Assembly: GCF_020097815.1 (NCBI RefSeq)
Contig: NZ_CP083663.1
Location: forward strand, 1,922,001-1,986,000
Direction: 5' to 3'
From: Haloprofundus salinisoli
GTDB lineage: Archaea; Halobacteriota; Halobacteria; Halobacteriales; Haloferacaceae
Length of the DNA stretch: 64,000 bases
Numbering within the stretch: the stretch's first letter is position 1; the number at the start of each line of letters is the position of its first letter. A program made the position numbers and the translations under genes. A model generated the notes under the pieces. The model saw only the letters and a program-made list of their open reading frames with translations, was not told the origin of the DNA and searched no databases. Shown here one piece after another: positions 43,577 to 51,812 of this stretch.

Positions 43577-44518
43577 TCAGAGTTCGCGGAGACCGAACGA
43601 CTCCGCGAGCAGGTCCTCGTCCGCCTCGCCGAAGACGCGCGTGGAGCCGTCGACGACGTCGACGGTGACCTGCGCGGGCGCGAACGCCGACACCGGCACC
43701 TGCGAGAAGTCCCAGTCGTTCTCGGCGAAGATGTCCTCGAACGGCGTGCCGTACTCGTCGGCGGCGGTCGAGGGGACCTCGTCGAAGCGGTCGAACTCGT
43801 CGCGCACGGTCAGGTGGACCTTCCCGCCGTAGGCGAGCGCGTCGTTCGTCCGCCCCATGGCGACGCCCTCGTCGTAGCTGACGGGCGCGATGGGCGCGCT
43901 GCCGCTGACCGAGAGGATATCTCGGGGGTCGTAACCGAGTTCGAAGAGGCGGAAGACGGCGAGCTCGGCGGCGCGGGAGGCGATGTTGACGCTGCCGGCG
44001 ATAGAGCCGACGGCGAACGTCGGCAGGAAGACGGCGCTCGGTTCGACCCCCGCGAGGTCGGCGACGTGTTCGGCGACCTCGTCGCCCGGCAGGTCGATGC
44101 TCTCGACGGCGAGAACGGTGAGGTCGAACTCGTCGTAGTAGCCGACGGCCTCGAACTCGGACTCCTGGCCGACGAGCGCGCGGGCGGGACCGCTGCCGAG
44201 GCCGTCGAAGCGGTCGAAGTCGAGTTCCCAGCCGGCCTTCTGCGAGCAGAGCAGCGCGATAGCGGGGTGGTCCGTCGACAGTTCGACGTGCGGAATCGGC
44301 GCGCCGTCGACCTCGCCCATTCGGCTCTGCACCGTGGCGAGACCGGCGGTCTGTATCTCCGTCAGCAACAACCCGGCTTCGACCCCGCCCGCGGCGTCGA
44401 CGCCGAAGTCCAGCACCGTCGCGCCCGACTCCAACTCGTACGCCCCGACGTTCAACTCGTCGGCGAAGTCGAGCGCCTCGTCGACGAGCTCTATCGCCAT
44501 CCGATTGAGACTGTCCAT
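43577..44518 (-). CDS. mch: methenyltetrahydromethanopterin cyclohydrolase
   Basis: 313 residues. Converts N5,N10-methenyl-H4MPT (or the folate counterpart used by haloarchaea) to N5-formyl-H4MPT in C1 transfer. Family blocks are MDSLNRMAIELVDEALD, GVEAGLLLTEIQTAGLATV, the PAIALLCSQKAGWEL segment and IDLPGDEVAEHVADLAGVEPSAVFLPTFAVGSIAGSVN. Haloarchaea lack methanogenesis and use Mch for purine and other C1 needs. The start at 44518 fits homologues; an ATG six codons earlier is possible. It is the first gene of a two-gene operon. Confidence 0.93.
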   Translation of the reverse strand: MDSLNRMAIELVDEALDFADELNVGAYELESGATVLDFGVDAAGGVEAGLLLTEIQTAGLATVQSRMGEVDGAPIPHVELSTDHPAIALLCSQKAGWELDFDRFDGLGSGPARALVGQESEFEAVGYYDEFDLTVLAVESIDLPGDEVAEHVADLAGVEPSAVFLPTFAVGSIAGSVNIASRAAELAVFRLFELGYDPRDILSVSGSAPIAPVSYDEGVAMGRTNDALAYGGKVHLTVRDEFDRFDEVPSTAADEYGTPFEDIFAENDWDFSQVPVSAFAPAQVTVDVVDGSTRVFGEADEDLLAESFGLREL

Positions 44519-44629
44519 ACCCTCGGTTGCGCCCATTCGGATAAAGGGTTTGGCGGTCGGCGGTCGTGCGCGAGGCATCATCTCGCGTCGCACGACTTTT
44601 ACTTCCGTCGTGTGGTACCGTCGAACAGG

Positions 44630-44998
44630 ATGCTCGAACTGTATCAGGCAGAGGGCTGCCCGCACTGCGCGAAAGTCAGAGACAAACTCTCCGAACTCGG
44701 CGTCTCCTACGTCAGCCACACGCCTCGCCTTCCCGGCGGCGAGGGCGGTGACGTCGTGAACCGGCAGGCGTACGACGAGATGCTCGCACTCGGCGAGGCG
44801 GACCAGATACCGTTCCTCGTCGACCACGACCGAGGCGCGCGCCTGTACGAGAGCGACGCCATCGTCGCCTACCTCGACGACCACTACGGCGACTCGCGCG
44901 CGTCCCGGACCGAAATCGACGTGCGCGAACCCGATAGCGGCGGACTGCGCGGTACCGTCGCGGGCGTCGCCGGTCGACTACTGCAGGTCGTTCGGTGA
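44630..44998 (+). CDS. glutaredoxin-like protein with CPHC site, copy 1
   Basis: 122 residues, thioredoxin-like fold. The dithiol active site is CPHC in YQAEGCPHCAKVRDKLSELG (residues 10-13) and a cis-Pro lies in DQIPFLVDHDRGARLYESDAIVAYL, as in the N-terminal domain of glutathione S-transferases. A nine-residue insert (PRLPGGEGG) and a C-terminal extension of about 35 residues, ending in an amphipathic helix (VAGVAGRLLQVVR), set it apart from its neighbour. CTTTTAC at 44596-44602 is a possible TATA box. Confidence 0.85.
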   Translation: MLELYQAEGCPHCAKVRDKLSELGVSYVSHTPRLPGGEGGDVVNRQAYDEMLALGEADQIPFLVDHDRGARLYESDAIVAYLDDHYGDSRASRTEIDVREPDSGGLRGTVAGVAGRLLQVVR

Positions 44999-45067
44999 GC
45001 GGGTCGCCGACGCTCTCGCACGCGCGAACCAACGTATTACTGACTGGCCGTCGACCCACATCCTGCG

Positions 45068-45322
45068 ATGCTCGAACTGTACCAGGCCGAAGGCTGTCCG
45101 TACTCCGAGAAGGCGCGTCAGAAACTGACGGAGCTCGGCGTCTCCTACGTTATCCACAACCCGCGAACGCACGACGGCGACGTGCTGAACGACCAGACCC
45201 ACGAGGAGCTCACGACGCTCGGCGGCGAGGACCAGATACCGTTCCTTGTCGACCACGCCCGCGGGGAGACGATGTACGAGAGCGACGACATCGTCAACTA
45301 CCTCGGCGAACACTACGGCTGA
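45068..45322 (+). CDS. glutaredoxin-like protein with CPYS site, copy 2
   Basis: 84 residues, very similar to copy 1 (both begin MLELYQAEGCP and share ELGVSYV, DQIPFLVDH and the YESD segment), 69 bases downstream on the same strand, so it is a tandem duplicate. The active site is CPYS, a monothiol form with only one Cys. Monothiol glutaredoxins often handle Fe-S clusters or glutathione-like adducts; haloarchaea use gamma-glutamylcysteine instead of glutathione. It lacks the insert and the C-terminal helix of copy 1. Confidence 0.85.
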   Translation: MLELYQAEGCPYSEKARQKLTELGVSYVIHNPRTHDGDVLNDQTHEELTTLGGEDQIPFLVDHARGETMYESDDIVNYLGEHYG

Positions 45323-45428
45323 GCGCCGCCGAGCACAGAGGCGGGCGGCGCTCAGGGCGTCGTCGCCGAACTCTTCGCCGACCGCGACACTCGCGTTATC
45401 CGCTCCCGCTGACCTCGTACCCTTCTTG

Positions 45429-45623
45429 TCAAACGGCCTCGTAGAGGTCGTGAGAGTCCGCTTCCTCGGCCTCGTGGAGCACGACGATCTTGTCGTCGCC
45501 GCGACGGACCTGCACTTCGTCGACGCCGTCGAGCTCCTGGAGACGCCTCTCGATGCGCTGGGCGGCGTTGTCCGACTCCATCCCGGTGACGGTCAGCGCG
45601 GTGCGGTGTCTCGCCACCGTCAC
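45429..45623 (-). CDS. HMA-like small protein without metal-binding cysteines
   Basis: 64 residues starting MTVARHRTALTVTGMESDNAAQRIERRLQELDGVDEV. The beta-alpha-beta pattern and VTGM plus the final GVDEVQVRRGDDKIVVLHE strand are those of heavy-metal-associated (HMA) domains, but the MxCxxC loop reads MESDNA, so copper binding by the usual site is not possible. Its ATG overlaps the stop of the MTH1187 gene (ATGA), so the two are translationally coupled. Confidence 0.7.
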   Translation of the reverse strand: MTVARHRTALTVTGMESDNAAQRIERRLQELDGVDEVQVRRGDDKIVVLHEAEEADSHDLYEAV

Positions 45624-45934
45624 TCGCCCCCGCTGCGGGCCTCGCGGCCGAGTTCGCGTTCGACGGCCTCGACTTTCTCCCGGGCGGTCTCGTCGCTCGC
45701 GCGCTTGTCGTCTATCTTCAGGAACGTGCTCACCCGGTCGGCGTCGACGGCGTTGTGCGCGGCGGCGACTGCGTCGAGGAGCGTCTCGACGTCCTCGGCT
45801 TCGATGACGGTTCCCATCGGGTTCGTCTCGTACTCGACATCGAACTCGTCGAGCGCGGCGACGGCCTCGGCCACGTCGGCGGCCATACTCTCCTCTGTCA
45901 CCGGTGCGACGCTCAGTAGTGCGATGACGGTCAT
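45620..45934 (-). CDS. MTH1187 family protein (thiamine-binding-like)
   Basis: 104 residues starting MTVIALLSVAPVTEESMAADVAEAV. This is the ferredoxin-like fold of the MTH1187/YkoF family: VAPVTEESMAADVA, then YETNPMGTVIEAEDVETLLDAV, and a C-terminal helical tail. Members are thought to bind thiamine or related compounds. It is first in a two-gene unit with the HMA-like protein that overlaps its 3' end. The upstream gap to 46102 is free of genes. Confidence 0.88.
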   Translation of the reverse strand: MTVIALLSVAPVTEESMAADVAEAVAALDEFDVEYETNPMGTVIEAEDVETLLDAVAAAHNAVDADRVSTFLKIDDKRASDETAREKVEAVERELGREARSGGE

Positions 45935-46102
45935 ACGGTGGGGTCTACAGCCAGCGACCTAACTTTGCGGGTCGATTTCGGCGGCGACGAGGCGACCGGT
46001 CTCGTTCCCGCCCCCGCATCGACGAGCGGAGCCGAACCGACGGTGACCGTATCGACGACGCTCCCGGCGGGCTTTTTGGCGGTCGTCGTCGTACGGAGTG
46101 TA

Positions 46103-47146
46103 ATGTCTCCCTCGCGTGAACGCGTTGTGACCGTCGGTCGCGCACTCCTTCACGAGATACGGGTGGAGAAGCTCACCTTTCTGGCCGGGAGCATCGCCTA
46201 CCACGCGTTCGTCTCGTTGCTCCCGTTCTTCGCGCTGGCGCTCGCGGCGTTCTCTGCGGTCGGCGACGGCTCGTTTCAGCGCGGGTTCGAGTCGCTCGTC
46301 GGCACGGTGCTGGCACCGGGCACGGGCGACCAACTGATTCGGGACCTGTCGAACGCCAGCGGGTCGACGAGTCTCTCCGTCGCGGGTGTCGTGTTCCTGC
46401 TGTGGGGTGCGATGCGCATCTTCCGCGGCCTCGATACGGCCTTCTCGGACATCTACGAGACGGAAGCCGAGAACACGTTTCAAGACCAGATACTCGACGC
46501 CATCGTCGTCCTCGGAACGGTCGCTATCGCCATCTTCGCGGCGGTACAGATCGAGCAGTTCGGCCTCGCGCAGTACGGCGTCGGCGGACGGCTCCTGCAG
46601 TTACTGCTCCTCGTCGGCGGTCTGACGCTCACGTTTCTACCGATGTACTACATCTTTCCCGACACCGACGTGAGCGTCGTCGAGATTCTGCCGGGGACGG
46701 TGTTCGCCGCCGTCGGCCTCACCGTCTTTCAGTTCGGCTTTCAGTACTACGCCGCCGCCAACAGCGACGGCCCCGGAAACCTCCTCGCGGTCGTTCTCCT
46801 GGTTCTGACGTGGCTCTACTTCAGCGGCCTCGTCGTTCTCGTCGGCGTCGCCATCAACGCCGTGCTCTCGAACCGCAGCGCCGACGTGAGCATCGAGCCG
46901 GTCGTCGGCGGCGTTCGACCCGAACACACCGCCGAACGAGCGAGCGAAGCGGAGCTCGCCGCGGCGCTGACCGAACTGGACCGCCTGCTCGACGCCGGCG
47001 ACGAGATAACCGTCGAAGTCGGCGACGGGTCGGTGACGCTTCCGAAACCGCAGCGCATCGCGACCGAAACTGACGGTTCGTTGCTCCGACTCAGCGACGG
47101 CGGCTACGGCCTCGAACTTCGCTGGTCCGTCCGCGACGAGGAGTGA
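46103..47146 (+). CDS. YihY/BrkB family membrane protein with cytoplasmic tail
   Basis: 347 residues. The six-helix YihY core (about residues 20-275) has AGSIAYHAFVSLLPFFALALA, SVAGVVFLLWGAMRIFRGL and FLPMYYIFPDT. The last 65 residues are a soluble beta-rich extension (AGDEITVEVGDGSVTLPKPQRI, then SDGGYGLELRW) absent from the paralogue at 7405-8205. The start at 46103 (MSPSRERVVTV) is chosen because the upstream codons run through a gene-free gap. Substrate and role are unknown. Confidence 0.85.
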   Translation: MSPSRERVVTVGRALLHEIRVEKLTFLAGSIAYHAFVSLLPFFALALAAFSAVGDGSFQRGFESLVGTVLAPGTGDQLIRDLSNASGSTSLSVAGVVFLLWGAMRIFRGLDTAFSDIYETEAENTFQDQILDAIVVLGTVAIAIFAAVQIEQFGLAQYGVGGRLLQLLLLVGGLTLTFLPMYYIFPDTDVSVVEILPGTVFAAVGLTVFQFGFQYYAAANSDGPGNLLAVVLLVLTWLYFSGLVVLVGVAINAVLSNRSADVSIEPVVGGVRPEHTAERASEAELAAALTELDRLLDAGDEITVEVGDGSVTLPKPQRIATETDGSLLRLSDGGYGLELRWSVRDEE

Positions 47147-47244
47147 CCGGTCGTTCTGGTCGCTCTCGCCGTTTCCGACACTCTCGGTTCCGACGGAGTC
47201 GCAGTTTTATCTCTCCATACTGTGAATAGGTACCGATAAACACG

Positions 47245-47469
47245 ATGAACTCACCTCGAACACTGACCAGTGACTCGACCGCCGCCGGCGCGATTCCCCG
47301 ACGCTCGGTCGTCAGAGACGAGCGCCTCAGCAGTTCTGCGCTCGCAGAAGCGTACCTCGTCTGGCGCTGTCACCGCTGCGGCGAAACCGGCGATTTGGAG
47401 GCGTTTCCCCTCACCTGCTCGAACGGCGACGCGCCGCGCGAGGAGCTGTACTACCGGACGGAGGACTGA
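47245..47469 (+). CDS. degenerate rubredoxin-like zinc-ribbon protein (DUF7130-like)
   Basis: 74 residues. The second half reads VWRCHRCGETGDLEAFPLTCSNGDAPREELYYRTED, which matches the DUF7130 rubredoxin-like end CxxCGExG..CPxCGAPRExLYYWTED, except that the fourth Cys and next Gly are replaced by Gly-Asp. With only three Cys the usual metal site is incomplete. The N-terminal part is shorter than in full-length relatives of about 100 residues. It could be a decaying paralogue or a protein whose metal site is built with a partner. Confidence 0.6.
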   Translation: MNSPRTLTSDSTAAGAIPRRSVVRDERLSSSALAEAYLVWRCHRCGETGDLEAFPLTCSNGDAPREELYYRTED

Positions 47470-47526
47470 CCGCTTCGCCCGACTGGAACCGGACTCGTTT
47501 TTGCCCGCGACCGAACTGCGTCCAGT

Positions 47527-47853
47527 ATGTACCTCTCACACCCCGTGCGCCGGATGCGCGACGACCCCATCGACGGTGAGGAGGTGACACTGGTCGTCGA
47601 ACTCGGCGACGGCGCGGACCGCGACGCGCTCGAATCGACCGTTCGAACGGGTGGTGGCGCTGTCGAGCGCGACCTGCAGTTTCGCGCCGTGTTAGTGCGG
47701 GTCCCCGAGTCGGCCGTCGCGTCGCTCTGCGAACTCGACGGCCTCGCGCGGATCGAAACCGGAGAGACGCTCTCGCTCGGCGTCGACGAGGACGCGACCC
47801 TCACGGACGACGAGAACGAAGAACTCAACTTCGAGGGCGACGAGCGACGGTAG
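47527..47853 (+). CDS. small alpha/beta protein resembling a peptidase propeptide domain
   Basis: 108 residues starting MYLSHPVRRMRDDPIDG. The central part, VVELGDGADRDALESTVRTGGGAVERDLQFRAVLVRVPESAVASLCELDGLARIE, has the beta-alpha-beta-beta-alpha-beta order and the final L..L..I/V.E element of subtilisin propeptides/I9 inhibitors, but no peptidase is attached. The last 25 residues are very acidic (DDENEELNFEGDERR). A stand-alone inhibitor or chaperone for a subtilase elsewhere is possible but unproven. Confidence 0.55.
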   Translation: MYLSHPVRRMRDDPIDGEEVTLVVELGDGADRDALESTVRTGGGAVERDLQFRAVLVRVPESAVASLCELDGLARIETGETLSLGVDEDATLTDDENEELNFEGDERR

Positions 47854-47867
47854 CAGAGCGGCGCGCC

Positions 47868-48113
47868 TCACACCACTGCGTATCCCTGCAGAAGCCAGAG
47901 CAGACCGACGGCACCGACGACGCCGCCGCCGATTCTCGTGAGCAACACCGACCAGTTCGCGGGCGCTACGTCTTCGAGACGTCGCGTGCTTCCAACCGCA
48001 TCGACTACCTCCCTGAGGAGAGCGATCTTGTACGGAAACAGCACCGACACCGCTCCGACGAGAAGCAGTGCACCGCCGAGTGCCATCCGCGCGTATCCGA
48101 GTTCGGAGACCAT
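47868..48113 (-). CDS. small membrane protein, unknown function
   Basis: 81 residues with two hydrophobic segments (about residues 7-26 and 58-79) and a charged central loop (REVVDAVGSTRRLEDVAPANWS). N terminus MVSELGYARMALGGALLLVG. No family is recognised. It is convergent with the I9-like gene (14-base gap) and lies 52 bases from the stop of the MaoC gene on the same strand, so it may be in that transcript. Confidence 0.6.
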   Translation of the reverse strand: MVSELGYARMALGGALLLVGAVSVLFPYKIALLREVVDAVGSTRRLEDVAPANWSVLLTRIGGGVVGAVGLLWLLQGYAVV

Positions 48114-48165
48114 CAGTTAGCCGTCTGACTCGTTTAGGAATAGCCGTTTCTGTCGACGGTACGGA

Positions 48166-48642
48166 CTACTGCTCTCGTGGCCGCCGAGCGACGAGCGCGT
48201 GGGCAGTCCACGAGATGACGACTTCGTCGCGCTGGTTGACGCCGATTATCTCGACGTCGACGTAGCCGCGCCCGGGGTCGGAGTCGGAGACGCGCATCGC
48301 ACCGAGTTCGACCCACCCCGAGAGCGTGTCGCCGGGTCGAACCGGGCGGTGCCACCGGAACTCGCTGAGGCCGCGGCCGCAGAGAAACGCGACGTTCCGG
48401 AAGAACGCCTCCGTCGCCAGACGGTTGCAGACGCAGTAGGTGTGGAGACCGCTCGCGATGAGGCCGCCGAACATCGATTCGCGCGCGGCGTCCTCGTCGA
48501 CGTGGAACGGTTGCGGGTCGTACTGCTCGGCGAACGCCACGATGTCGTCTCTCGTCAACGTCGCCGTCGCCAACTCCCAGCGACCCTCAGGGTCGAGGTC
48601 CTCATAGTACTGGCGGGTGGAGGTGGCCGCGTCAGTTTGCAT
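48166..48642 (-). CDS. MaoC family dehydratase
   Basis: 158 residues of the hot-dog fold. The catalytic Asp/His pair is in FAEQYDPQPFHVDEDAA (Asp and His near residues 40-47, the R-hydratase motif), followed by FGGLIASGLHTYC and PVRPGDTLSGWVEL. It likely hydrates an enoyl-CoA in beta-oxidation or polyhydroxyalkanoate synthesis; substrate chain length is unknown. No CoA-pathway gene is nearby. The first helix is preceded by MQTDAATSTRQYYEDL. Confidence 0.88.
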   Translation of the reverse strand: MQTDAATSTRQYYEDLDPEGRWELATATLTRDDIVAFAEQYDPQPFHVDEDAARESMFGGLIASGLHTYCVCNRLATEAFFRNVAFLCGRGLSEFRWHRPVRPGDTLSGWVELGAMRVSDSDPGRGYVDVEIIGVNQRDEVVISWTAHALVARRPREQ

Positions 48643-49254
48643 ACCGAGTAACGACTCGCTGGTGGAATTACCGTTCCGGTAGCGACGAATGAGCGGCGTC
48701 GCGGCGGGTCACGCTGACCGCGCCACGACAGGCGTACGACCCCATCGACCGACCCGGCGGACCGCGACGGCCCGGTGTCTGCTCGTCGCTGGGCGGGTCG
48801 GTCGGTGGACTTCCCCCACGATGCGGTGTACGGCGTGTCGACGAAGCGTTCGCTCCCTGTTTCGCTACAGAACCCTCGATGCTACGGATGCGTGCCCAGT
48901 TTTCGGGTCGTCGACAGCGACTACCCCGTCAGGACGTGCCGTTATCAACTTGTGGGCCACGCGTACGTCCGGGAGAGTGTGAGTCGACCGAGAGTATGTG
49001 TGCCTCGTGACGAAACGCGCCAGTCGGAACTACTGAGCTCAGAGACGTGCGCTGGCCAGGACCGAGCAGACCAGAGGTCTGCGAGGGTCGACGAGACTCC
49101 ATCTCGCCGGGATTTGGACTGAGTCAGAGGTGCTCGCTCACGAGGACGCTGTTCGCTGCGCGCGACTGACCGGCTCACATCCGTCGCTTACCCACCGATT
49201 TGGAGCCTCACGATGGGATAAAACCCGTCGCTCGGTGTTTAGAGATCGGAGAAA
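48643..49254. other. 612-base gene-poor region with tRNA-end fragments
   Basis: No intact gene is supported; the open frames have Ser-, Arg- and Cys-rich compositions unlike their neighbours, and no start has a clear TATA box. Two pieces resemble tRNA parts: bases 49048-49061 repeat the last 14 bases of the tRNA-Gly copy at 49255, and 49107-49119 (CCGGGATTTGGAC) resembles a T-arm. The region adjoins tRNA-Gly genes and may be an old insertion zone of mobile elements. Confidence 0.5.
49048..49061 (-). repeat. 14-base fragment of a tRNA-Gly 3' end (att-like direct repeat)
   Basis: TGCGCTGGCCAGGA is identical to 49255-49268, the acceptor stem and part of the T-arm of the degraded tRNA-Gly. The two copies are 207 bases apart in the same orientation. 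Integrases of haloarchaeal elements often use tRNA 3' ends, so these may be left and right att-type repeats of a lost element; no integrase gene is present. Confidence 0.45.
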
Positions 49255-49328
49255 TGCGCTGGCCAGGATTTGAACACTGGGTTGCGGCCGTGGAAACGAC
49301 CGCGTGTTGACCGCTACACTACCAGCGC
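49255..49328 (-). pseudogene. degraded tRNA-Gly (anticodon UCC-like)
   Basis: The acceptor stem GCGCTGG/CCAGCGC is perfect and the body follows tRNA-Gly, but it is 74 bases long instead of 71. The anticodon stem CGGTC/GGCCG closes an eight-base loop with TCC at 49292-49294, and the T stem needs one T to be removed from CCAG(T)G to pair with CCTGG. The D loop is one base longer than in the intact copy. It shares the acceptor and most of the D-arm with the intact tRNA-Gly at 49647. A working tRNA with an odd loop is not fully excluded. Confidence 0.6.
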
Positions 49329-49646
49329 GGGGTGACCGCCTCTGCGTCTCTACCAACACCCCCCAGCAGTAAAGGCGTTTTCTCCCTTATCACTTCGCGA
49401 AACAACGGTCGGGACAGATGCGAGTGCTGCGGATGTGTCTCAGATTCGAGTCGTGGACCCAGCGATGTGACGGCGAGTGGCTCCGTATATTTCACCACGC
49501 TAGCTACTCTCTAGCAATGGTTTTCTCTCCCGACCTCCTCTCAGTTGGGGATCTTCGATGGGGAGGATTCAAATCCCGTACCGCATTTACCTCACGCGAG
49601 ATTGGAGCGACCTGGAGCTCACTCGCGGTGTTGTGTTCGGGAGAAG
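49329..49646. other. 318-base region between the two tRNA-Gly copies
   Basis: No gene is supported. A GGATTCAAATCC-type T-loop-like piece occurs on the plus strand at 49565-49578, with no tRNA around it. The remaining sequence has mixed composition and no recognisable protein. Together with the remnants on the left it looks like decayed sequence. Confidence 0.45.
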
Positions 49647-49717
49647 TGCGCTGGCTGGGATTTGAACCCAGGTTGTGACCATGGCAAGGTCACGTGATAC
49701 CACTACACTACCAGCGC
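49647..49717 (-). tRNA. tRNA-Gly (GCC)
   Basis: 71 bases with no encoded CCA. Acceptor GCGCTGG/CCAGCGC with discriminator A; D arm GTG-TAGTGGTAT-CAC; anticodon arm TGACC-TTGCCAT-GGTCA with anticodon GCC (complement of 49683-49685); variable loop CAAC; T arm CTGGG-TTCAAAT-CCCAG. All stems are paired. On the minus strand a CCTTATCAAC element about 40 bases upstream may be part of its promoter. It is the intact relative of the copy at 49255. Confidence 0.93.
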
Positions 49718-49878
49718 CTGACTGCTGCGTTTCCACAATTGCGGCATTTGTTGATAAGGCTTGCGAATCGGAGTCGAATCGACAGCGGGCGTGGGGGCGG
49801 TTCGCATTCTCAAAATCGGCTGAATGTGTCGTCAACCGTCATGCGAGGGCGTCTCACGCCGATTTCGATTCCGCTACC

Positions 49879-49886
49879 CTTTTTAG
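49879..49886 (+). promoter_or_regulatory. TATA-like box of the ribosomal operon
   Basis: CTTTTTAG is centred about 57 bases before the ATG at 49940. The predicted start of transcription is near 49910, leaving a leader of about 30 bases. A GTG at 49916 is in frame and would give a longer N terminus that does not fit the family. Confidence 0.45.
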
Positions 49887-49939
49887 TGCGTATCGGATAG
49901 CAACGTCACAGTCTAGTGGCGAGACACCCAAACGACGGC

Positions 49940-50791
49940 ATGACACTCACCGTATGCGTGCCGTCGTCGCTCGTCCGGGAGGCCGAGGACCAACGCGAGG
50001 CGACTCGCAAAATCGGCTACGTCGCCCGCGCGGCGACGGTGTTCCGGGCGGACCGGCTGGTCGTCTTCCCCGACAGGGAGGGCGAGCGCCGCTGGGGCGG
50101 CGAGTTCGTCGCGACCGTGCTCGAATACGCCGCGACGCCCCCCTACCTCCGACAGGAGGCGTGGGGCAAGCGCGACGAGTTACGGTACGCCGGCGTGCTA
50201 CCGCCGCTCCGTGTCTCGCCACGGACCGGCTCCGAATCCGACGATTCGGGGTCGTTAACACAGGGAATCGTGACCGAGGTCGGACCTGAAGGTCGCGTCC
50301 GGGTCAATTGCGGACTGCAACACCCGATCTCGCTCTACACGCCTCCGGGAACGGAGGTCGAGGAGCGAGAGCGCGTCACCGTCAGGATCTCTTCGAGAGA
50401 ACCGGTCCGTGCCCGCATCGTCGACGAGACCCCACCGGGGTTCGTCGTCGAGCGCACGGACCTGTCGGAAGCGCTCGGCCGTGAGGACGCCGGCGTGAAA
50501 ATCGGCACCTCCCGATTCGGACAAAAACTGTCCGTCGGGCGGCTGTCGACGCTGGCCGGACGAACCGCCGACGGAATGACCGTCGCCTTCGGTTCGCCCG
50601 AGAGAGGGCTTCCAGACATCTTCGGGTTTCCGCCCGAAGCCGTCGCCGACGAGGAGTCGGCAGACGACCGAGTCGAACCCGGTCCGGGGTTCGACCTCTG
50701 GCTCAATACGGTTCCGCGACAGGGCAGCGAGGTCGTGCGAACGGAGGAAGCGATGTTCGCCTCACTCGCCTGCCTAACACTCACGGAGTGA
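49940..50791 (+). CDS. putative RNA (uridine-N3) methyltransferase, SPOUT class (COG2106)
   Basis: 283 residues. This is the conserved SPOUT protein at the head of haloarchaeal S10 operons, related to yeast and human C9orf114. MTLTVCVPSSLVREAEDQREATRKIGYVARAATVFRADRLVVFPD forms the first half of the split knot and GSPERGLPDIFG is in the SAM-binding knot; an OB-like insert sits in between (about residues 95-185). It probably modifies rRNA uridines. The stop is four bases from rpl3, so it starts the ribosomal transcript. Confidence 0.85.
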   Translation: MTLTVCVPSSLVREAEDQREATRKIGYVARAATVFRADRLVVFPDREGERRWGGEFVATVLEYAATPPYLRQEAWGKRDELRYAGVLPPLRVSPRTGSESDDSGSLTQGIVTEVGPEGRVRVNCGLQHPISLYTPPGTEVEERERVTVRISSREPVRARIVDETPPGFVVERTDLSEALGREDAGVKIGTSRFGQKLSVGRLSTLAGRTADGMTVAFGSPERGLPDIFGFPPEAVADEESADDRVEPGPGFDLWLNTVPRQGSEVVRTEEAMFASLACLTLTE

Positions 50792-50795
50792 AACA

Positions 50796-51812
50796 ATGCC
50801 ACAACCAAGCAGACCACGAAAAGGTTCGATGGGCTTCGGCCCGCGTACGCGCGCAGCCAAAGAGGTTCCGCGCATCAAGTCGTGGCCCGACGACGAGGGA
50901 TCCCCTGCGCTGCAGGGCTTCGCCGGCTACAAGGCCGGGATGACTCACGTCGTCATGGTCAACGACACGGCGAACTCGGCCCGCGAGGGGATGGAGGAGT
51001 CCGTTCCCGTGACGGTCGTCGAGACCCCGCCGATGCGCGCCGTCGCGCTTCGAGCCTACCAGAACACGCCGTACGGACAGAAACCGACGACCGAGGTCTG
51101 GGCGACCGACCTCGACGAGGACCTCGACCGCGTCCTCGACCTGCCGTCGGAAGACACGTTCGAGGAGGACGCAGACGACCTCCGCTCGCTGCTCGACGAC
51201 GGCGAGGTTGACGACCTTCGGGTCATCACCCACACCGTCCCGAGCGGCCTCAAGAACGTCCCGAAGAAGAAACCCGACGTGATGGAGACTCGCGTCGGCG
51301 GCGGTTCGCTCGACGAACGCGCCGACTTCGCGCTCGACCTGCTCGAAGCGGGCGGCGAGCACGCGATGGCCGACGTCTTCCGCGCGGGCGAGTACCTCGA
51401 CGCGGCCGGCGTCACCAAAGGCAAAGGGACGCAGGGTCCCGTCAAGCGCTGGGGCGTCCAGAAACGCAAAGGCAAGCACGCCCGCCAGGGATGGCGGCGT
51501 CGCATCGGTAACCTCGGCCCGTGGAACCCGAGCCGCGTCCGCTCGACGGTTCCCCAGCAGGGGCAGACCGGTTACCACCAGCGCACCGAACTGAACAAAC
51601 GCCTCGTCTCGATGGGCAACGGCGACGACGCGTCCGTCGACGGCGGCTTCGTCAACTACGGCGAAGTCGACGGCGACTACGCGCTCGTCGAGGGCTCGCT
51701 CCCGGGCCCGAACAAGCGCCTCCTGCGCTTCCGCCCGGCCATCCGACCGAACGACCAGCCGCGCCTCGACCCCGAGGTGCGCTACGTCTCCACCGCGTCC
51801 AACCAGGGGTGA
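50796..51812 (+). CDS. rpl3: 50S ribosomal protein L3
   Basis: 338 residues, uL3 family. The N terminus PQPSRPRKGSMGFGPRTRA and the GYKAGMTHVV block, then RWGVQKRKGKHARQGWRRRIGNLGPWNPSR near residue 220 (the loop reaching the peptidyl transferase centre), are diagnostic. First ribosomal protein of the operon; four bases separate it from the SPOUT gene and seven from rpl4. Confidence 0.97.
   Translation: MPQPSRPRKGSMGFGPRTRAAKEVPRIKSWPDDEGSPALQGFAGYKAGMTHVVMVNDTANSAREGMEESVPVTVVETPPMRAVALRAYQNTPYGQKPTTEVWATDLDEDLDRVLDLPSEDTFEEDADDLRSLLDDGEVDDLRVITHTVPSGLKNVPKKKPDVMETRVGGGSLDERADFALDLLEAGGEHAMADVFRAGEYLDAAGVTKGKGTQGPVKRWGVQKRKGKHARQGWRRRIGNLGPWNPSRVRSTVPQQGQTGYHQRTELNKRLVSMGNGDDASVDGGFVNYGEVDGDYALVEGSLPGPNKRLLRFRPAIRPNDQPRLDPEVRYVSTASNQG

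Follow-up and report, generated by a model that had tools for sequence, protein, structure and literature searches.

Within a 64,000-nucleotide stretch of the genome of Haloprofundus salinisoli (Halobacteriales, Haloferacaceae; contig NZ_CP083663.1, positions 1,922,001 to 1,986,000, hereafter the window), a zone with two tRNA-Gly genes probably consists of a normal tRNA-Gly(GCC), a maintained paralogous tRNA-Gly of non-canonical build (the odd tRNA), and small gene-less cassettes, here called tails, that became inserted at the 3' ends of tRNAs, sites where mobile DNA classically lands. As judged from sequence comparison, the odd tRNA would be a maintained UCC-type tRNA-Gly and not a degraded one, and the T-arm pieces and 3'-end repeats of the window would be the worn tails of the two tRNAs. 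The features of the zone, all on the minus strand and in positions of the window, are the following.

49647..49717, minus strand: canonical tRNA-Gly(GCC) (ARAGORN; Rfam tRNA 66.7 bits)
49565..49646 (boundary approximate), minus strand: putative remnant of a type B tail module behind tRNA-Gly(GCC), left part only, with the inverted T-arm GGGATTTGAATCC; fuller copies in other Haloprofundus
49369..49391, minus strand: promoter-like conserved block 5' of the odd tRNA, GATAA..GAGA.AACGCCTTTAC (five-genome alignment; putative promoter)
49255..49328, minus strand: conserved non-canonical tRNA-Gly, UCC-type (ARAGORN, Rfam; kept in 5/5 Haloprofundus genomes, relatives in Halohasta and Halobonum)
49098..49254 (approximate, by eye), minus strand: putative type B tail module behind the odd tRNA, comprising a left hairpin, a T-arm hairpin and a decayed 3'-end copy (alignments with other Haloprofundus and with the tRNA-Gly(GCC) unit)
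49110..49183, minus strand: T-arm hairpin of the tail element behind the odd tRNA, a worn copy (covariance model R3, 51.7 bits, E 4e-12)
49048..49097 (left boundary by eye), minus strand: putative type A tail module, with the hairpin CTCGCAGACC..GGTCTGC and an exact 14-nt copy of the odd tRNA's 3' end at 49048-49061

Two tRNA genes are called in the window by ARAGORN: tRNA-Gly(GCC) and a second one that it leaves unassigned ("tRNA-???"), its anticodon given in two letters. The intact tRNA, the second copy with its 8-base anticodon loop and extra T-stem base, the exact 14-base repeat of that copy's 3' end and the T-arm-like pieces at 49107-49119 and 49565-49578 had been pointed out in a first-pass annotation, and each was confirmed. 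The repeat, TGCGCTGGCCAGGA, is exact at 49048-49061 and 49255-49268 and sits within a 27-nt direct repeat of 85% identity, and the second T-arm-like piece is an inverted T-arm. Counterparts exist in the other Haloprofundus genomes, where 3'-end-like copies follow the odd tRNA in three of four (none in genome G004) and a T-arm-like piece follows tRNA-Gly(GCC) in all four. In genome G002 the tRNA-Gly(GCC) unit and the odd-tRNA unit align over 338 columns (69.8%, 6e-32), downstream T-arm and acceptor-end pieces included, while within the window the corresponding match covers the tRNA and little more; the likeness in G002 may reflect either a joint duplication of tRNA and tail or the separate gain of tails of the same family by both. 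In the genome of the window as a whole, tails were found behind Gly-CCC, the odd tRNA, Arg-CCT, Ser-GGA, Lys-CTT and His-GTG. At another place in this genome (G000:C1:804950-805500) a tRNA-Ser(CGA) is followed by two units with 3'-end copies, whose left-hairpin sequence is like that behind tRNA-Gly, and near 373.1 kb of the same contig (locus L162, 87-143, minus strand) a shorter, 57-nt T-arm hairpin, with no tRNA called in the 401 bases fetched, is perhaps an orphan tail.

The layout of a tail is mostly the same. Behind the tRNA comes a left stretch, often with a hairpin; GGATTTGAACC and GGTTCAAATCC, or variants of them, then frame a core of about 47 bases, and a copy of the 3' end of that very tRNA follows. 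This arrangement was found behind Ala, Arg, Leu, Val, Ser and Gly tRNAs, and in the main tail type the outer arms of the hairpin are the T-arm of the local tRNA and its reverse complement. Tails behind Gly-CCC read GGAATTGAACC..GGTTCAATTCC, resembling the T-arm of the Gly-CCC tRNA. The hairpin measures about 69 nt with 11-bp arms and is thus short, non-coding and provided with inverted ends, as are miniature inverted-repeat transposable elements (MITEs) and small mobile repeats (SMRs); the whole unit of roughly 75-150 bp is gene-less. In an alignment of 21 copies, 93.8% of the cells are paired in the structure that we specified, and 29 cells were changed on both sides of a pair compared to 8.4 after shuffling (0/500 shuffles), a signal that was lost when the partners were slid. 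Five of six copies folded singly lie far below shuffled energy (z-scores of -3.7 to -5.2), and one does not (-1.29). No Rfam family matched the hairpin at gathering level in nine loci; a likeness of its core to a kink-turn was considered by eye. An inverted acceptor end 5' of the inverted T-arm, suspected by eye, gave 8.8 versus a permuted 8.04 ± 0.23 (permuted maximum 8.86).

Used alone as a query, the downstream tail part matched 127 of 167 genomes of the family, many on about 75 query bases, and in 20 such places that were fetched a tRNA was called by ARAGORN in 13 and by Rfam in one more (L149). The covariance model R3, which contains copies from three other Haloprofundus and not the window's own, matches 272 of 293 genomes in the order (E 1e-5), which represent 81 of its 87 genera. 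In a sample of 246 genomes from the phylum, 41 were matched at E 1e-6, every one of them a member of the order; the other 205 include some from other orders. The link to tRNA genes is close: when every listed R3 match at E 1e-4 is taken in three genomes, 52 of 56 lie at most 700 bases downstream of a tRNA, where about 1% is expected by chance, and 51 are on the strand of that tRNA; tails follow 6/51, 17/44 and 12/45 of the tRNAs in these genomes. Among 59 loci fetched for the best R3 matches, which include model-building copies and tandem copies, a same-strand tRNA lies upstream in 53, at no more than 300 nt in 50 of these. The remaining six comprise four without any tRNA, in which Rfam concurs, and two with an ARAGORN tRNA on the opposite strand, one confirmed by Rfam (L222) and one not (L191). 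The last 14 nt of the own tRNA are repeated after the hairpin with at most three mismatches in 50 of the 53 loci, exactly so in 37, and the locus of the window is one of the three lacking such a copy.

That tails are fitted to their own tRNA and not to tRNAs in general was indicated by permutation over 50 of the 59 loci, leaving out the six without a same-strand tRNA and three further tandem copies. When tRNAs were shuffled among loci, 3'-end matches with at most one mismatch, observed 40 times, fell to a mean of 3.5 and a maximum of 10 in 2000 shuffles. The inverted arm differs from the T-arm of its own tRNA by a mean of 0.68 mismatches as compared to 1.28 when permuted (permuted minimum 1.04), and it is exact in 25 loci versus 12.1. 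The arms and the core were then compared in 34 of 48 copies, chosen for full 69-nt length and high score, the pairs being non-independent. Across genera, arms that belong to the same tRNA resemble each other more than other arms do (0.965 vs. 0.916, P 0.001), whereas for cores the tRNA makes no such difference (0.866 vs. 0.863, P 0.41); a shared genus makes cores somewhat more similar (0.895 vs. 0.863, P 0.0095). In these copies the arms therefore track the tRNA and the cores do not, which indicates that the ends are tied to the tRNA and the core is not.

Tails are also present or absent behind one and the same tRNA. Behind an identical tRNA-Ala(GGC) in 30 Halorubrum loci, fetched and classed out of 46 genomes with a match (one further match running into N was left out), 19 have at least one further 3'-end copy and 11 have none, and three of the latter retain decayed module sequence as judged by eye. 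Two types of module, one with the T-arm hairpin and one with a plain hairpin, occur here alone, in either order or repeated (again by eye). In a pair of filled and empty loci the native flank continues directly from the position following the last tRNA base, with 119 of 160 aligned bases identical, and tandem units were found behind Val-CAC and Gly-UCC tRNAs. As in the remnants of integrase attachment, a direct repeat of the tRNA 3' end bounds the inserted segment. Presence and absence, arrays and the precise junction with the flank together form the pattern expected of insertion or loss between direct repeats of tRNA 3' ends. The first-pass annotation had suggested that in the window the sequence between such repeats may mark the excision of a past element, with no integrase left. 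Segments that look inserted and are bounded by tRNA 3'-end copies, variable in Halorubrum, partly support this idea, but what is present is a widespread hairpin element and not the gap of a single excised integrase element. The stretch between the two 14-base repeats (49062-49254, 193 bp) holds no integrase gene or element, and no integrase is found among the nine neighbouring open reading frames (ORFs; 43580-51809) scanned against Pfam, a span beyond which the window was not scanned for one.

We propose that a recombinase provided in trans would put tail units into tRNA 3' ends and take them out again, with the T-loop probably serving as its crossover site; flanked by the T-stem arms, the seven bases TTCAAAT have the layout of a tyrosine-recombinase core. 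Homologous recombination between the 3'-end repeats could then multiply or delete units. Several observations speak against this view. The tails could not be tied to any recombinase, their element was matched neither in phage records nor, by exact pattern, in IMG/VR, and the presence and absence of tails could result from homologous recombination alone. Left to itself, RNAalifold proposes a consensus of 13 inner pairs only, five of them changed on both sides, and leaves the T-arm arms open. The window's own copy is a poor example: no 3'-end copy directly follows its hairpin (L183), even with up to 4 mismatches, and as DNA this hairpin folds no better than its shuffles (z 0.40, as compared to -3.4 and -6.0 for two well-kept copies), while in G004 no R3 match follows the odd tRNA. 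Furthermore, whole hairpins behind different tRNAs of one genome share 0.759 (n 25), less than those from different families and tRNAs (0.829, n 596); among all 48 copies, divergent ones included, those of the same genus share 0.913 (n 40). Hairpins of one genome are thus not especially alike, and homogenisation within genomes is not supported. Four haloarchaeal plasmid records match the tail element.

The tails might alternatively act as RNA, namely as structured trailers of the pre-tRNA, in which the tRNA fold has to compete with an anti-T-arm and with a decoy T-arm and acceptor end, so that 3' processing or quality control is tuned. We regard this as possible, if on balance unlikely. Position and strand fit a role as RNA, with 51 of the 56 matches lying downstream on the sense strand, which also counts against a purely mobile unit; the hairpin covaries, the inverted arm follows the T-arm variant of its own tRNA (0.68 vs. 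1.28 permuted mismatches), and when the odd tRNA of the window is folded in silico together with its tail, the distal 3'-end copy takes the place of the tRNA's own 3' end in pairing with the 5' acceptor strand (z -2.93, ensemble frequency 0.004). However, only a minority of tRNAs carry a tail (6/51, 17/44 and 12/45), tails are variably present behind identical tRNAs in one genus, units are multiplied in tandem, and the core is not tied to tRNA identity, all of which speaks against such a role.

Tyrosine integrases use attachment sites in tRNA 3' ends, one class of them with crossover in the T-loop. Tails likewise duplicate a segment of the tRNA up to its last mature base and would be inserted precisely there, but unlike such sites they form a gene-less unit with an inverted T-arm and a conserved hairpin core. 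The attC sites of integrons consist of a folded inverted repeat with outer and inner arms and an asymmetric spacer, and their cassettes form arrays; the tails resemble them in layout only, through hairpin arms with a spacer and arrays of units with a common end, whereas their attachment is the tRNA 3' end and the units seen are gene-less. In Haloquadratum, SMRs (SMR-A/B), MITEs and partial tRNA duplications have been described (PMC3119063), and in the parts of that report available to us SMRs and MITEs are, like tails, short and non-coding with inverted ends, the MITEs being mobilised in trans and the mobilisation of SMRs being given as unknown. Those SMRs target other mobile elements without duplicating the target, whereas tails match the local tRNA and duplicate its 3' end. 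Partial tRNA copies adjoin full tRNAs in Haloferax gibbonsii LR2-5 as well (PMC7921747), where they are treated as remnants, with no conserved hairpin or order-wide family mentioned in the sections consulted. A partial tRNA is reported to be used as a viral attachment site (PMC7230728, consulted in part), and a review of archaeal tyrosine recombinases mentions neither T-arm nor T-loop in what was accessible of its main text (PMC8371274). No description of the tail element or of the odd tRNA was found in the portions of the open-licence literature covered.

The odd tRNA, the second part of our proposal, scores 40.1 bits with the Rfam model RF00005, above the gathering threshold of 29 and lowest of the 51 tRNA matches in the host genome. 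Read directly, its anticodon loop GUUUCCAC has 8 nt instead of the 7 of an elongator, the T stem contains one extra, bulged U in place of five uninterrupted base pairs, and the D loop has 8 nt; the predicted fold is a cloverleaf in which the anticodon stem is extended to 8 bp and capped by a UUCC tetraloop. It was present in all five Haloprofundus genomes when the zone was used as query, its 74 bases being identical in four and differing in the fifth by one A-to-G change in the T loop. Only one of 74 columns is variable as compared to 180 of 282 in the aligned flanks (Fisher P 1e-25), so that it does not evolve at the rate of its flanks as a tRNA pseudogene would. The block upstream of it is conserved and has the motif GCCTT and its rough position in common with the block preceding tRNA-Gly(GCC), and the gene therefore probably has a promoter of its own.

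Relatives of the odd tRNA were sought with a covariance model built from two Haloprofundus sequences and one from Halohasta, leaving out the other two Halohasta copies and that of Halobonum. Across 167 genomes of the family, scores above 75 bits occur only in Haloprofundus (5), Halohasta (three of four genomes, the fourth being 83% complete) and Halobonum (1/1), tRNA-Gly(GCC) genes reaching up to about 70 bits; a pattern scan of named genomes matched Haloprofundus marisrubri, two Halohasta and Halobonum. The Halobonum copy lies downstream of tRNA-Gly(GCC), the same arrangement as in Haloprofundus, and has a normal 7-nt loop, GUUCCAC, and an intact T stem. The Halohasta relatives stand at other genomic places, with a tRNA-Ile adjoining in two of three, and neither ARAGORN nor the Rfam tRNA model at E 0.1 calls any of the three a tRNA. 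One has the 8-nt loop GUUUCCAC, and its anticodon stem is likewise predicted to extend to 8 bp with a UUCC tetraloop; the other two have 7-nt loops, GUUCCAC and GAUCCAC, the latter without U33. At the Halohasta loci L104, L105 and L106 the relative comes after a gene that would encode a small, cysteine-rich protein (read from the ORFs of the equivalent locus L051 and by eye in the others).

Six distinct sequences of this family have 97% of their stem cells paired, and four stem pairs (two in the acceptor, one in the anticodon and one in the T stem) changed on both sides, with 11 such cells versus 4.8 when shuffled (0/500 shuffles). G1-C72, C2-G71, G3-C70, A73 and the anticodon CC are kept in all members and are glycine identity elements. 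The pair G32-C39 closing the anticodon loop is invariant, and throughout the family the loop is enlarged or closed by this pair, the T stem being interrupted outside Halobonum. Strict conservation together with compensated stem changes argues that the odd tRNA is maintained, and from the shared features the Halohasta and Haloprofundus genes are likely orthologous. Two points weaken this: counted as pairs and not as cells, the changes on both sides (4 vs. 2.8 shuffled) were equalled in 93 of 500 shuffles, and the Halohasta relatives, located elsewhere, may be a separate lineage. For the Halohasta and Halobonum relatives, moreover, predicted folds do not reach the cloverleaf by energy alone. A search of the order with model R2 matched 11 of 392 genomes, eight within the genera used to build the model; of the others, two are ordinary GCC genes and one is a UCC tRNA with a GCC-type body. 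The last (L113, 1501-1571, plus strand, loop GUUCCAC) is from G321, a 62% complete genome of another family of the order, and is possibly an independent conversion of GCC to UCC. A phage origin of the odd tRNA was rejected, as phage records had no match and pattern scans of IMG/VR gave none and one chance-type match in a phage-like coding sequence. The same applies to a plasmid origin, for which the single record, from Natronorubrum, matches the GCC gene region at 98.7% and, in the same place, the UCC gene of G321 at 80.3%, this place being the one examined of two in that record.

Canonical tRNA-Gly genes with GCC, UCC and CCC anticodons are all present in the host genome besides the odd tRNA, which is thus seemingly not needed for glycine codons. 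It could nevertheless be an ordinary elongator for GGA and GGG with tolerated quirks of the loop, a reading that we find rather doubtful. Its Rfam score exceeds the gathering threshold, the triplet UCC lies within the loop, and in the relative from Halobonum the loop is of 7 nt and the T stem runs without interruption; however, a canonical tRNA-Gly(UCC) already exists, the loop is closed by an invariant G-C pair and the T stem is bulged, one Halohasta copy has no U33 (GAUCCAC), and the three Halohasta copies are unmatched by the Rfam tRNA model at E 0.1. We rather favor a tRNA that may accept glycine, would be poor in ordinary elongation and might serve another purpose. Staphylococci have a non-proteinogenic tRNA-Gly(UCC) for cell-wall bridges, which the odd tRNA resembles as an extra UCC-type tRNA-Gly with an altered T stem or elbow, but no glycine-transferring partner has been identified for it, nor was a search made for one. 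An enlarged loop of 8 nt is also found in a natural tRNA, the yeast mitochondrial tRNA-Thr (PMC7609411, consulted in part), from which the odd tRNA differs in being archaeal, of glycine type, redundant with isoacceptors and bulged in the T stem.

The first-pass annotation had taken the odd tRNA for a degraded copy and had itself named conservation in other species as the evidence that would overturn this, and such conservation is what we found, in all five Haloprofundus genomes and, with compensated stems, in two more genera. A decayed second tRNA-Gly copy flanked by the excision scars of an integrase-bearing element appears quite improbable: the 3'-end repeats and T-arm pieces are real, and partial tRNA duplications beside integrated elements are known in haloarchaea from the portions read of two reports (PMC3119063, PMC7921747), but the odd tRNA is nearly invariant between diverged flanks, and the supposed scraps hold a conserved core that recurs order-wide behind many different tRNAs. 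The 8-nt anticodon loop with UUCC that the odd tRNA has in Haloprofundus and one Halohasta is matched in length by the loops of known +1 suppressor tRNAs, yet a natural four-base (GGAA-type) decoder or +1 frameshift tRNA is very improbable since the loop length varies in the family (7 nt in two Halohasta and Halobonum) and the extra bases can pair in the predicted fold, giving an 8-bp stem with a UUCC tetraloop.

Most sampled genomes of the order thus hold, at tRNA 3' ends, a short, structured and gene-less unit with ends fitted to each tRNA. If the tail units move, they offer a simple system to study how one recombinase uses many different tRNAs; if they act as RNA, they represent a new kind of tRNA trailer, and either way fragments dismissed as tRNA remnants would need to be re-annotated. 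The odd tRNA in turn shows that among archaea, too, a tRNA whose anticodon loop has 8 nt can be strictly conserved while seemingly redundant in decoding. There is a chance that the tails are something categorically new. It is tempting to speculate further, and only tentatively, that they constitute an order-wide set of gene-less cassettes whose attachment site is the local tRNA 3' end, whose hairpin is the recombination signal and whose arrays are integron-like, and that one such locus gave rise to a dedicated, non-decoding glycyl-tRNA.

Two further observations concern the surroundings. At 50286-50385 (plus strand) the window matches the Rfam L4-Archaeoglobi ribosomal protein leader with 74.2 bits (gathering threshold 34.5), a match also found in G002; it lies inside the frame of a putative RNA methyltransferase (PF02598), just 5' of the gene for ribosomal protein L3. 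At about 44700-45322 (plus strand) two adjoining frames of glutaredoxin/glutathione S-transferase-like type, only the second of which was scanned against Pfam, start alike (MLELYQAEGCP...) and are perhaps a tandem duplication.

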